Position numbers and translations under genes: made by a program
Part shown: piece by piece, positions 33,959-38,252 of the stretch
Position numbering within the stretch: the stretch's first letter is position 1
Layout: every line of letters begins with the position of its first letter
Origin: Parvimonas micra
GTDB lineage: Bacteria; Bacillota; Clostridia; Tissierellales; Peptoniphilaceae
DNA length: 64,000 nucleotides
Direction: 5' to 3'
NCBI RefSeq assembly: GCF_900637905.1
Contig: NZ_LR134472.1
Span: 124,001 to 188,000, forward strand
The notes under the pieces: generated by a model
What the model was told of the DNA's origin: nothing
Seen by the model: only the letters and a program-made list of their open reading frames with translations
The model's database searches: none

Positions 33959-34783
33959 CTAAACAAATTTTTTAACCTTTTCAATATTTTGACTTGCAAC
34001 CATATATCCTTCCTTATATAAATCTACAACATCTTGCATATTAGTTGTAAATGATTTAAATTTTAAAGGATTAACCGGTGCAAAAACTAATGCTTTATCT
34101 TCTGCTTCTAGTTTATCTACTAAATCCATAGTTTCGTTATATTTATATTTTTCATTTTTCATTGATTCAATAAATTTAGGATAATCTTTATAAGCATACT
34201 TTACTCTATCACTAACATCAGAATCCTCTCTTCTATAACCTCTATTTCTAGTTAGTAAAATTACGTACTTTTCATAACCTTTTTCAATTGCTCTTTCAAG
34301 TGGATTGCTATTATACATTCCTCCATCAAAATAAGGAATTCCATCAATCACTACAAATTTTGCCATATCTGGAAGAGAAGATGAAGCTATTATCTTATCA
34401 ACCATATCTGAAGTGTTTTTTGCATCTTTTGCTGAAAAGAATTTATAACTGCCATCAATTAAAGAAGTTACCCCTGCTTCAAAATCTCCATCTAAACTTT
34501 TATCAAATTCAGGAAAATTAAAAATACTATTAACTGTTGATTTCAAATCAATAGGCTCAGAAGAATTCTTTAATAATTCCATATTTTTCAAAAACTCTTG
34601 AAACAATTTATTAACATCAAACTCTATTCCACTAAAAAATTCAAAGCCTGTAATAGCTCCTGCAGATACTCCTACAATATATGGAAATTTAATTTCATTT
34701 TCTTTAAAGCAATCTAAAACTCCTTTTAAAAAAGCTCCTCTCATTGCTCCGCCTTCAATAACCAATGCAACTTTATTATTCAT
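33959..34783 (-). CDS. Patatin-like phospholipase
   Basis: The 274-residue protein has the oxyanion loop GGAMRGAF (11-18), nucleophile elbow GVSAGA with Ser40, and the catalytic Asp in YFDGGMYNSNP near 160: a complete Ser-Asp dyad for acyl-ester hydrolysis. No signal peptide. It resembles the cytoplasmic patatin family widespread in Firmicutes. A GTG four codons upstream is open, but GAGGTG places the start at the ATG 34781-34783. First gene of the operon with metallophosphoesterase, CYTH, membrane protein and HAD phosphatase. Confidence 0.9.
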   Translation of the reverse strand: MNNKVALVIEGGAMRGAFLKGVLDCFKENEIKFPYIVGVSAGAITGFEFFSGIEFDVNKLFQEFLKNMELLKNSSEPIDLKSTVNSIFNFPEFDKSLDGDFEAGVTSLIDGSYKFFSAKDAKNTSDMVDKIIASSSLPDMAKFVVIDGIPYFDGGMYNSNPLERAIEKGYEKYVILLTRNRGYRREDSDVSDRVKYAYKDYPKFIESMKNEKYKYNETMDLVDKLEAEDKALVFAPVNPLKFKSFTTNMQDVVDLYKEGYMVASQNIEKVKKFV

Positions 34784-34816
34784 AAAACACCTCACATCTT
34801 ATTAATTATATTTACT

Positions 34817-34845
34817 ATTTTACCATATTTTTAGTAATTTCTCAA
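34817..34845 (-). promoter_or_regulatory. Promoter of the five-gene patatin operon
   Basis: TTGAGA (34840-34845) and TAAAAT (34817-34822) lie 17 bases apart on the minus strand, 34 bases before the patatin start. Confidence 0.7.
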
Positions 34846-34985
34846 ACAAACAAAATATCAAATTTATAATATTTTCTTAGTTCAAATTATTTTTAAAATA
34901 TTTAATTTATCTAAACAATTAATTCATTTATAATTTTATTTATAATCCAATCTTTATAAGTAAATTTAATTTTTTTAATAATTAT

Positions 34986-35014
34986 TTGATTAGAATAATT
35001 TTATATGATATAAT
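34986..35014 (+). promoter_or_regulatory. Promoter of the gene at 35140
   Basis: TTGATT (34986-34991) and TATAAT (35009-35014) with a 17-base spacer. A second TATAAT at 35024-35029 may be an alternative. The rest of the 34784-35139 gap is AT-rich with no gene seen. Confidence 0.7.
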
Positions 35015-35139
35015 TTTACTACAGTATAATCAATTGGCATAAATAAAGTGCTTATCCATTTGTACAATATAGAAATCTCAAAAATTATAAGAAAATTTGT
35101 CTTTTATATATTATTTTTATAGATAATTAGGAGGAAAAA

Positions 35140-35574
35140 ATGAAGATTGGAGTAAGAACACCAAGTGTTAAAAAGATGACTAGCTCAAGAACAACTGGAA
35201 TGATTAATAGAAAAGCAAAATCTTCTTTTAATCCACTGTATGGAAAATCAGGAATGGGTATAGTAAATAATCCTAAAAAAGCTATTTATAATAAAGTATA
35301 TAATAAAACTACTGTATCTATTAAAGATATAAATATTGATATTGATATGGATAATAGTGAAGAAGATGAATACGAATCTTATAGTAAATCAAAATATAAT
35401 ATATTATACTTATTATCAGGATTTTTGAATATATTTTGTGGAGTATTATTATGTTCATCAAGTATATTACTTAGTGGAATTGGCTCATTTAGTATTGTAT
35501 TAGGGATATTAAGTATTATCAAATATATAATAATCATAATATCCACAAAAAAGCCCCCACAAGATAGAAACTAA
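35140..35574 (+). CDS. Small membrane protein with a basic glycine/asparagine N-terminal module, unknown
   Basis: The 144-residue product starts with a basic segment of about 58 residues containing KIGVRTPSVKK, RTTGMINRKAKSS, NPLYGKSGMG, NNPKKAIYNKVYNKTT. I recall similar N-terminal segments on diverse small proteins of streptococci and other Firmicutes, often phage- or host-encoded, but cannot verify this here. An acidic linker (DIDMDNSEEDEYES) and two membrane segments (about 88-107 and 113-133) follow. It has its own promoter, strong AGGAGGA site and terminator. The function is unknown. Confidence 0.8.
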   Translation: MKIGVRTPSVKKMTSSRTTGMINRKAKSSFNPLYGKSGMGIVNNPKKAIYNKVYNKTTVSIKDINIDIDMDNSEEDEYESYSKSKYNILYLLSGFLNIFCGVLLCSSSILLSGIGSFSIVLGILSIIKYIIIIISTKKPPQDRN

Positions 35575-35656
35575 TCTGTAATGATGTGATAAACACATTA
35601 ATCTTGCAAATTAATTATATCACAATTGAACTGCTATGCTTAAATAACACATAATT

Positions 35657-35696
35657 AATACAACGTTGAGAATTAAAGAATTTTCAACATTGTATT
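35657..35696 (+). terminator. Inverted repeat after the gene at 35140
   Basis: AATACAA-C-GTTGA pairs with TCAAC-A-TTGTATT around an AT-rich loop. The T-run after it is short, so termination is only possible. Confidence 0.45.
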
Positions 35697-35728
35697 GTTT
35701 ATATTACCATAAAATCAAAAAATATACG

Positions 35729-35759
35729 AAAAAAGTAAGCCTATTAAACTTACTTTTTT
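35729..35759. terminator. Bidirectional terminator after leuS
   Basis: AAAAAAGTAAG (35729-35739) and CTTACTTTTTT (35749-35759) are perfect inverted repeats between the convergent leuS and the gene at 35140. Confidence 0.85.
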
Positions 35760-35822
35760 GTAGTTTGAAAACAAATTTATTAATTAATATAAATTAAAAT
35801 CATATCCATTATTTATAAATTT

Positions 35823-38234
35823 TTATTTAACAACTATATTACAAATTTTTCCCGGAACAAAAATTTCTTTTACAACAGTTTTTCCTTCTATAAATTTTTT
35901 AACATTTTCGTTATCATAAAGTGATTCTTTAAAATCTTCAAATTTTGCATCTTTTGGAATCATTAATGTTGTTCTTACTTTTCCATTTATTTGAATAGGC
36001 ATTTCAACTTCAGAATCAATTGTTTTAACTTCATCATATTTTGGCCAAGTTTGTTCAAAGATATATCCACCAAAATTCATTTCTTCCCATATTTCTTCAG
36101 TAATATGTGGAGAAACTGGATTTAATAAAATCAAGAATATTCTTAAATCTTCTCTTGAAATTTCTTTTACTGAATAAAATTCATTAATTAAAGTCATAAG
36201 AGCTGCTATTGCAGTATTAAATTTAAGACTTTCAAAATCTTCTGATACTTTTTTAATTGTCTTATGGATTGATTTTTCCAAAGATTTTGTCATTTCTTCG
36301 GATGAATTTGTAATTTCTTGTAATTTCCAAACTCTATCTAAGAATTTTCTACAACCGTTAATTCCACCGTCAGACCAAGACGCACTTCTTTCAAAATCTC
36401 CTAAGAACATTTCGTAACATCTCAATGCGTCTGCCCCATATTTGTCAATCATTTCATCTGGATTTACAACATTTCCTCTTGACTTAGACATTTTTTCTCC
36501 ATTTTCTCCAAGAATCATTCCATGTGATGTTCTTTTTAAATAAGGTTCTTTTGTATTTACTACACCTATATCATAAAGAAATTTATGCCAAAATCTTGAA
36601 TACAACAAGTGCAATGTAGTATGTTCCATACCACCATTATACCAGTCAACTTGATTGAAATATTTTAAAGCATCTTTTCCGACAAGATTTTCTTTATTAT
36701 TAGGATCCATATATCTTAAATAATACCATGAAGATCCCGCCCATTGTGGCATTGTATCAGTTTCTCTCTTTGCTTTTCCTCCACATTTAGGACAAGTACA
36801 ATTTACGAACTCATCAATTTTTGAAAGTGGAGATTCTCCTGTTTCTGTAGGTTCAAATGATTCAAGTTCAGGAAGTTTTAAAGGTAGTTCTTCTTCCGGA
36901 ATTGCAACCCAACCACATTTTTCACAATATACCAAAGGAATCGGTTCTCCCCAATATCTTTGTCTTGAAAATACCCAGTCACGAAGTTTAAAGTTTGTCT
37001 TCTTATTTCCAATACCAAGTTTTGATAAATATTCAAAAATCTTTTCTTTGGCTTCTTTAACTGAAAGTCCATTTAGAAAATCTGAATTAACCATAATTCC
37101 ATTATTAGTATCCGTATATGCTTTTTCTTGAACATTTTCTCCACCACTAACAACTTCAACTATTTCTAATCCAAATTTCTTAGCAAAATCAAAATCTCTA
37201 GTATCATGTGCAGGAACTGCCATAATTGCTCCACTACCATAAGTCATTAGAACATAATCAGAAATAAACACAGGAATTTCTTTTTTAGTACAAGGATTAA
37301 TTGCTGTTATTCCATCAATTTTAACCCCGGTTTTATCTTTATTCATTTCAGTTCTTTCAAATTCAGATTTCTTTTGAACTTCTAAAATATATTTTTCTAT
37401 TTCTTCTTTATTCTTTATTCTGTCTTCGTATTTTTTAAGTAATGGATGCTCACAGGATATAACCATATAAGTTGCACCAAAAATTGTATCAGGTCTTGTA
37501 GTATATACCAAAATAGTATCATCAATATCTTTGATTTGGAATTTAACTTCCATTCCATAACTTCTACCAATCCAATTAATTTGTTGGGTTTTAACTCTGT
37601 CAATAAAGTCAACTTCATCAAGGTCATCAATAAGTCTATCTGCATATTCTGTTATCTTTAACATCCATTGATTTTTAACTTTATGAATAACTTCACTACC
37701 ACATCTTTCACAACAACCGCCAACTACTTCTTCATTTGATAAACCTACTTTACAAGAAGTACAGAAGTTTATTGGCATTTCCATTTTATAAGCAAGCCCT
37801 TTTTCGAACATCTTCATAAAAATCCATTGAGTCCATTTATAGTACTCAGGATCTGTTGTATTTATTTCTCTATCCCAATCAAAAGAAAATCCGATACGCT
37901 TTAATTGTTTTTTAAAGTTTGCAATATTATTTTTTGTTACAATTTCCGGATGAATTTTGTTTTTCATCGCATAGTTTTCAGTTGGTAAACCAAAAGCATC
38001 CCAACCCATTGTAAACAATACATTTTGCCCTTCAAGTCTTCTTTTTCTACTTACAACATCCATTGCAGTATATGGTCTTGGATGTCCTACATGAAGTCCT
38101 TGACCAGAAGGATATGGAAATTCTATTAAAGGATAGAATTTTTCTTTATCATTAATTTCACATTTAAAAGGCTTCTTTTCATCCCAAATATCTTGCCATT
38201 TTTTTTCGATATTTTTCGGATCATAATTTTTCAT
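35823..38234 (-). CDS. leuS: Leucyl-tRNA synthetase
   Basis: LeuRS charges tRNA-Leu. The 803-residue class I synthetase has the HIGH-type motif [12 protein letters not shown], an editing (CP1) domain with [14 protein letters not shown], and the KMSKS loop [17 protein letters not shown], followed by the anticodon-binding domain. Length is normal for bacteria. The frame runs six codons upstream, but TGGAGGAA sets the ATG at 38232-38234. A T-box leader controls it. Confidence 0.98.
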
Positions 38235-38252
38235 AACATTCCTCCATTCCAT

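Follow-up and report, generated by a model that had tools for sequence, protein, structure and literature searches.

The window gene and its insertion site

A 144-residue open reading frame with an ATG start lies on the forward strand at 35140–35574 of the window, the whole 64,000-nucleotide stretch of DNA that was analysed. The gene is located in a short insertion between two chromosomal genes, which we take from their sequences to encode a patatin-like phospholipase and a leucyl-tRNA synthetase. The features of the locus are:

33959–34795, reverse strand: patatin-like phospholipase gene, presumed from its sequence; chromosomal flank, not part of the feature
34820–34827 and 35704–35711: direct repeats TTACCATA bounding the insert; such a repeat is expected 0.06 times in 1200 bases
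34828–35711, no strand: inserted segment of about 0.88 kb with the gene, absent from relatives
35129–35134, forward strand: Shine-Dalgarno-like AGGAGG upstream of the gene, seen in the sequence and backing the start at 35140
35140–35313, forward strand: portable polybasic N-terminal head, residues 1–58, common to 156 intact proteins
35323–35394, forward strand: acidic linker, probably unstructured, about residues 62–85 (sequence; pLDDT below 50 at residues 63–73 and 77–80)
35401–35457, forward strand: predicted transmembrane helix 1, residues 88–106 (hydropathy; AlphaFold2 helix 76–110)
35485–35541, forward strand: predicted transmembrane helix 2, residues 116–134 (hydropathy; AlphaFold2 helix 116–136)
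35823–38252, reverse strand: leucyl-tRNA synthetase gene (leuS), presumed from its sequence; chromosomal flank, not part of the feature

The first-pass annotation described the protein as a self-contained, basic, Gly/Asn-rich segment of 58 residues joined to an unrelated acidic linker and two membrane helices. Sequence, hydropathy and the predicted structure agree with this architecture. The linker is acidic and contains DINIDIDMDNSEEDEYES, and the two hydrophobic helices follow it. The full-length protein was found only within its own genus (loci L003 and L070) and has no match in Pfam or NCBIfam up to an E-value of 10. Neither the full protein nor its body (residues 62–144) matches TM2 (PF05154), although the body is a transmembrane hairpin, and the body has no Pfam match to any tested Sie protein. 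A promoter scan gave 14 sites against 13.9 expected, and 0 terminators.

The gene is missing from the matching site in four of the six genomes of the genus. The inserted segment has a G+C content of 21% (computed on 34828–35688) versus 28% for the window, and a megablast search of the insert against E. coli genomes returned no match. No recognizable integrase or repressor is present among the open reading frames from 26 to 45 kb around the gene. The window copy is located outside any prophage and not in the integrase–repressor slot described below. In the other carrier, genome G003, the 1200-base region at 34701–35900 is 99% identical to that of the window's own genome (G000), beside a patatin-like protein (33959–34795) that is only about 85–90% identical between the two genomes and is split into two frames in G003. 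This juxtaposition points to a recent transfer of the insert region between species. The 1200-base block shared by G000 and G003 is likely a recent recombination block. Genome G002 carries a different insertion of roughly 650 bases (L204) in the same intergenic region between the patatin-like gene and leuS, which may therefore be a recurrent insertion site.

The N-terminal head and the bodies it is joined to

The head has the consensus KxGxRxP..ARTT..KR..PxYGKKGMG...NPKKAxYNKVYNKTT over residues 1–58. In an alignment of 48 rows, the mean column identity is 72% and ten columns are invariant; the invariant residues include G4, R6, G38, P45, Y50, N51, K52, Y54, K56, and T58. Among the 110 cluster representatives, the net charge averages +16.6 (range 12–22), a head contains on average 0.65 acidic residues in its 58 positions, and none contains a hydrophobic segment (0/110). 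The head is under selection as a protein, with a median pS of 0.77, which is saturated, versus a pN of 0.20 (93 modules, 4278 pairs). A nucleotide-level leader element is ruled out by the saturation of the synonymous sites.

The AlphaFold2 model of the window protein, for which 55 of 96 module rows were used in the alignment, is of modest confidence as a whole (pTM 0.31). Its head is formed by helices at residues 10–30, 39–43, and 45–54, with pLDDT of about 87–94 for residues 11–50. A 70-residue stand-alone form of the head is also predicted to be mainly helical, with modest confidence (pTM 0.41). The stand-alone model, the only one searched with Foldseek, had 0 matches in the PDB and one weak match in BFVD (E 2.0, in Paenibacillus phage Hayley). 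Compared with shuffled sequences, the long helix of the head shows no excess amphipathicity (mean z 0.01, 110 heads), and an amphipathic helix by which the head would insert into the membrane is therefore not supported, although the tails that follow stand-alone heads do show such an excess (mean z 1.37, 31 tails). Since the long helix is basic and not amphipathic, we prefer a head that would bind polyanions or dock to a protein over one that inserts into the membrane.

PHROG families 10934, 3374, 29766, 4721, and 17596 match residues 1–60 with E-values from 1e-25 to 6e-6, so the head is not a chance resemblance. The five families have profile lengths of 103 to 304 and are without known function, and all contain the head at profile positions 1–60 or 1–27. 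PHROGs thus splits the head carriers into separate families, presumably because their bodies differ, and gives the head no entry of its own. The open-licence PMC titles and abstracts that were searched contain nothing on the head, and its core motif was not found there. In a gene of a known kind, residues 1–58 make up a new domain: a mobile N-terminal head that has not been described so far.

Among 50,697 phage records searched with residues 1–61, 88 carry the head (44 from Streptococcus, 19 from Paenibacillus, six from Enterococcus, five from Lactococcus, and others), as do 16 of 72,556 plasmid records and 67 loci of GTDB species genomes, mostly from Firmicutes and also from Bacteroidetes. 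With the alignment as the query, the head turned up at no fewer than 286 IMG/VR loci (80 retained) and, within the window's class, in 24 of 291 genomes. The intact set, restricted to proteins of at least 60 residues, comprises 156 head proteins with lengths of 65–519 residues, which form 110 clusters at 85% identity. Eight of the 164 tblastn places were left out of it (two cut by locus ends, five under 60 residues, and L002), and L074, on the minus strand, was left out of protein extraction.

The head begins at residue 1 in all 156 intact proteins. The upstream open frame is at most 30 codons long in 148 of them, and a Shine-Dalgarno-like motif precedes residue 1 in 82 of the 110 clusters, compared with 156 of 2200 random positions; together these two features place the head at the very N-terminus. 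The boundary between head and body is real, as the head is conserved, whereas the window body, compared with the module bodies at E<0.9, matches only itself. The first-pass annotation had placed the module on varied small proteins in Firmicutes, and the collected proteins bear this out: they come mainly from Firmicutes and their phages, and the head is a portable module on otherwise unrelated bodies.

Pfam searches with 77 bodies identified TM2 in ten, HIRAN in six, TPR in four, and the metal-binding domain of Ada (Ada-type zinc) in three; DUF4428 (two), SNase, TerB_N, and SHOCT (one each) are rarer. The 110 clusters comprise 32 that consist of the head and a short tail, 70 with a hydrophobic helix after residue 55, and eight with neither. 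The predicted helix is thus present in 70 of the 78 proteins longer than 72 residues, the window protein included, and the head proteins are predicted to be mostly membrane-anchored. In a tree of 110 heads, the body classes are scattered (HIRAN needs five changes for five members, CTD1 seven for seven, AdaZn four for four, TM2 seven for ten), counts that are only indicative as the short heads leave the tree weakly resolved. Body classes were assigned by regular expressions, and L134 entered the tree as "other".

The best PADLOC matches of the 77 bodies are C3a212 (3.1e-22), to the SNase body of L144, and SngA (1.5e-11), to the TerB_N body of L028. The remaining bodies match more weakly, and the window body has no match. 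IMG/VR searches with single bodies returned only the query's own contig in one case and nothing in another. The protein at L144:6001–7239 combines the module, a transmembrane segment, a staphylococcal-nuclease domain, and an Ada-type zinc tail. At L201, separate adjoining genes encode a nuclease-zinc protein and one with CTD1, as if by fusion and fission of one set. CTD1 is an undescribed C-terminal domain of about 140 residues with the motif LKTE.GK.N; it occurs with the module head, DUF4236, an MGLFDIFK-like start, or a transmembrane hairpin (L199, L200, L201, L202, L220, L226, and many module proteins).

Genomic niche of the head genes and the second head, DUF4236

In annotated phages, the head gene is usually positioned between the repressor and ImmA genes on one side and the integrase gene on the other, as in SM1, phiEf11, TPW22, Javan52, Javan264, phiARI0995b, TPELB_ph1, and 98202. 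Of the 90 clusters with enough flanking sequence, 21 have an integrase gene on the same strand that begins no more than 400 bp downstream, compared with 38 of 1379 control anchors from the same loci, and 40 have an integrase within 3 kb downstream. Within 3 kb upstream, cI was found in 52 of 103 clusters and ImmA in 24 of 103 (local HMM). All three lysogeny markers are missing from the 3-kb flanks in 54 of the 110 clusters, some of whose loci are short or chromosomal. Neighbours were defined from a mechanical ORF caller as the first downstream frame of at least 100 residues and the nearest upstream frame of at least 55 residues, and those of the window gene itself (the L001 rows) were left out of the sets. 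Pfam identified 26 integrases and five resolvases among 105 downstream neighbours and 20 M78 peptidases among 108 upstream ones. Exceptions to the usual position are a copy in the early region of phage Pika, one in the satellite phage Javan390, and one in phage phiFN37 that adjoins a type III toxin–antitoxin gene and regulators.

The first-pass annotation had proposed looking for a phage or secretion-system context. The phage context is evident from the recurring integrase, repressor, and ImmA neighbours. No secretion-system family is found among the 25 commonest of 77 and the 25 commonest of 75 neighbour families, apart from two matches to the Bacteroidetes-type Por sorting tail, a domain of secreted proteins. 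Shared by many of the head genes, this niche is the lysogeny module of temperate phages, arranged as repressor, ImmA-type peptidase, head gene, and integrase, which we take to be the home of the class.

The Pfam domain DUF4236 (PF14020) resembles the head in being N-terminal, basic, Gly-rich, and about 55 residues long, with a mean net charge of +10.5 over 57 residues. Its motif, RFRKS...GTGLS, differs from that of the head. An hhalign comparison of the two gave a probability of 0.4 over one aligned column, and the window protein has no PF14020 match up to an E-value of 10; homology is ruled out by the lack of profile similarity in hhalign. The bodies are nevertheless shared. The DUF4236 protein L166 and the module protein L134 align over 255 body residues with 28% identity (E 4e-27). 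With the BLAST low-complexity filter on and a threshold of E≤1e-3, a module body is matched by 14 of the 54 DUF4236 bodies in the non-redundant set, compared with one of 320 other open reading frames from the same loci. Bodies found on both heads are TM2, CTD1 (phage AR1075-1), Ada-type zinc tails, and the two-helix membrane body of L134 and L166. SHOCT also occurs on both according to Pfam, in the module protein L049 and in the DUF4236 protein L247, where the match (E 0.00023) is under the curated cut-off.

Of 34 DUF4236 loci in IMG/VR, 22 have cI or ImmA upstream of the gene and 15 an integrase downstream, counts that leave out L248, a 25-residue frame. DUF4236 occupies the lysogeny slot in Roseburia phage Shimadzu and phage RG-TP1, whereas in C. 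difficile phages its genes adjoin structural (tail) genes instead. The window's own genome encodes, outside the window, a DUF4236–TM2 protein (L165; G000:C1:900281–900445), flanked by genes whose own sequences lead us to take them for an ImmA-type M78 peptidase and a tyrosine integrase. The L165 locus is the lysogeny module of a prophage or integrative element with the alternative head. A second copy of the head itself in this genome is ruled out, as the place found at E 0.229 has an internal stop. In the open-licence PMC literature searched, DUF4236 appears in one paper, listed as a Salmonella genomics study.

Proposed role in prophage immunity

The slot between repressor and integrase is known from tested superinfection-exclusion genes. 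In phage TP-J34, orfs 1–4 encode the integrase, Ltp, a metallo-proteinase, and the CI repressor, and ltp blocks DNA injection (PMC3952083). The Ltp lipoproteins (PF07553) share this arrangement and the membrane tether with the head proteins; unlike them, Ltp works outside the membrane via a lipid anchor and is without a basic head. No fusion of the module with Ltp is present among the 110 clusters. At four loci (L055, L073, L076, and L085), the module gene is preceded by an ltp-like gene, and in the same slot of Javan383, TM2 is fused to two Ltp repeats, its TM2 part matching the TM2 module proteins over a partial domain only.

In phage TP901-1, Orf2 (bPH_3 and SHOCT domains) and Orf3 (an ImmA-like peptidase) are encoded between integrase and cI. 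This lactococcal system, SieF7/2AB, resembles the head loci in pairing a membrane-associated protein with an ImmA-like peptidase between repressor and integrase; Orf2 differs in having a bPH_3 domain and no basic head. Its SHOCT domain is 59% identical to that of module protein L049 over 32 residues, a partial domain only. TM2 is the body of 10 of the 77 module proteins, among which the window body, without a TM2 match, does not belong. According to PMC7693887, Orf2 and Orf3 protect against several phages when cloned, and the resistance to P087 and WRP3 is complete. The same study describes three genes from this slot of phage Dub35A that conferred none when cloned, which counts against an exclusion function. 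PdpSau, a prophage membrane-anchored abortive-infection protein, was set aside as a comparison because its gene is in the lysis module (PMC10127798).

As Ltp and TP901-1 Orf2/Orf3 occupy the same slot, exclusion is the function that we favour: by analogy, we hypothesize with about equal confidence for and against that the head proteins are superinfection-exclusion factors of prophages. The head genes would be expressed along with the repressor in the lysogen, and at the cytoplasmic membrane their products would serve superinfection exclusion or immunity. Following the positive-inside rule, the head would remain cytosolic and would dock the protein to a common polyanionic partner, be it nucleic acid or the head groups of anionic lipids; interference with the incoming phage would fall to the variable body. 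A body acting alone as the effector is disfavoured, given that 8 of the 78 long bodies lack a clear transmembrane helix and 32 of the 110 clusters are stand-alone heads. The head is probably a reusable handle for prophage membrane proteins. The window gene would be a stray copy that was inserted by itself, as a single cassette, between its chromosomal neighbours.

The first-pass annotation had suggested a common targeting or delivery role for the head. Delivery fits poorly with a head devoid of hydrophobic segments, with proteins that look like resident membrane proteins, and with integrase, repressor, and ImmA neighbours. Targeting, understood as a shared docking or topology role, is the best reading, and we infer that the role of the head proteins is most likely prophage-encoded membrane immunity rather than delivery.

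The chemistry of the head also suits a nucleic-acid binder that would hold DNA or RNA at the membrane, whether from an incoming phage, from the prophage, or in ribosomes, with exclusion being incidental. Its high positive charge with few acidic residues, the basic, non-amphipathic helix, the HIRAN or SNase domains of some bodies, and a sequence conserved across phyla, as expected for a universal ligand, are consistent with such binding. The charge would suit anionic lipids too, however, the Foldseek searches gave no fold match, and the proposal overlaps with the favoured explanation; we regard it as unlikely. The M78/ImmA genes upstream, on the same strand and compactly spaced in SM1, phiEf11, and phiARI0995b, would agree with membrane sensors of the lysogeny switch that, together with the neighbouring ImmA-type peptidase, control how the repressor is cleaved and the prophage induced, with ImmA, the repressor, or DNA as the contact of the head. 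We find this quite unlikely, as ImmA is missing from the 3 kb upstream in 79 of the 103 clusters, so diverse a set of bodies does not fit a single signalling partner, and heads such as the window copy occur away from any lysogeny gene.

Such stray chromosomal copies, and bodies as varied as TM2, TPR, and Ada-type zinc following Thr-rich stalks, could instead belong to generic lysogenic-conversion cargo, host-benefiting proteins of the envelope or of stress responses that are unrelated to phage exclusion. This reading is more doubtful still, since tested exclusion genes use the slot, and Ltp- and Sie-type proteins found there have TM2 and SHOCT domains in common with the module bodies. The restriction of the full-length window protein to its own genus is what a single ordinary orthologous membrane protein with a conserved N-terminus would display. 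That explanation has almost no standing: one head on unrelated bodies in 110 clusters already contradicts it, and with it the confinement of the head to one orthologous family that the first-pass annotation had named as its own refutation.

Returning to exclusion as the favoured function, we tentatively propose, at somewhat less than even confidence, that the head and DUF4236 are interchangeable cationic adaptors for one modular class of prophage membrane immunity proteins. Both would engage the same universally conserved partner in bacteria, on the cytoplasmic side of the membrane, and the freely exchanged body would supply the anti-phage or host-sensing activity. The system would be common to temperate phages of several phyla, with stray copies turning chromosomal, as that of the window did.

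The head provides a domain that can be named in hundreds of prophage "hypothetical proteins". A search for either head between repressor and integrase would yield many candidate superinfection-exclusion genes, including candidates that body-by-body homology misses. Because the head and DUF4236 are exchanged for one another, a shared function of the two can be tested directly.
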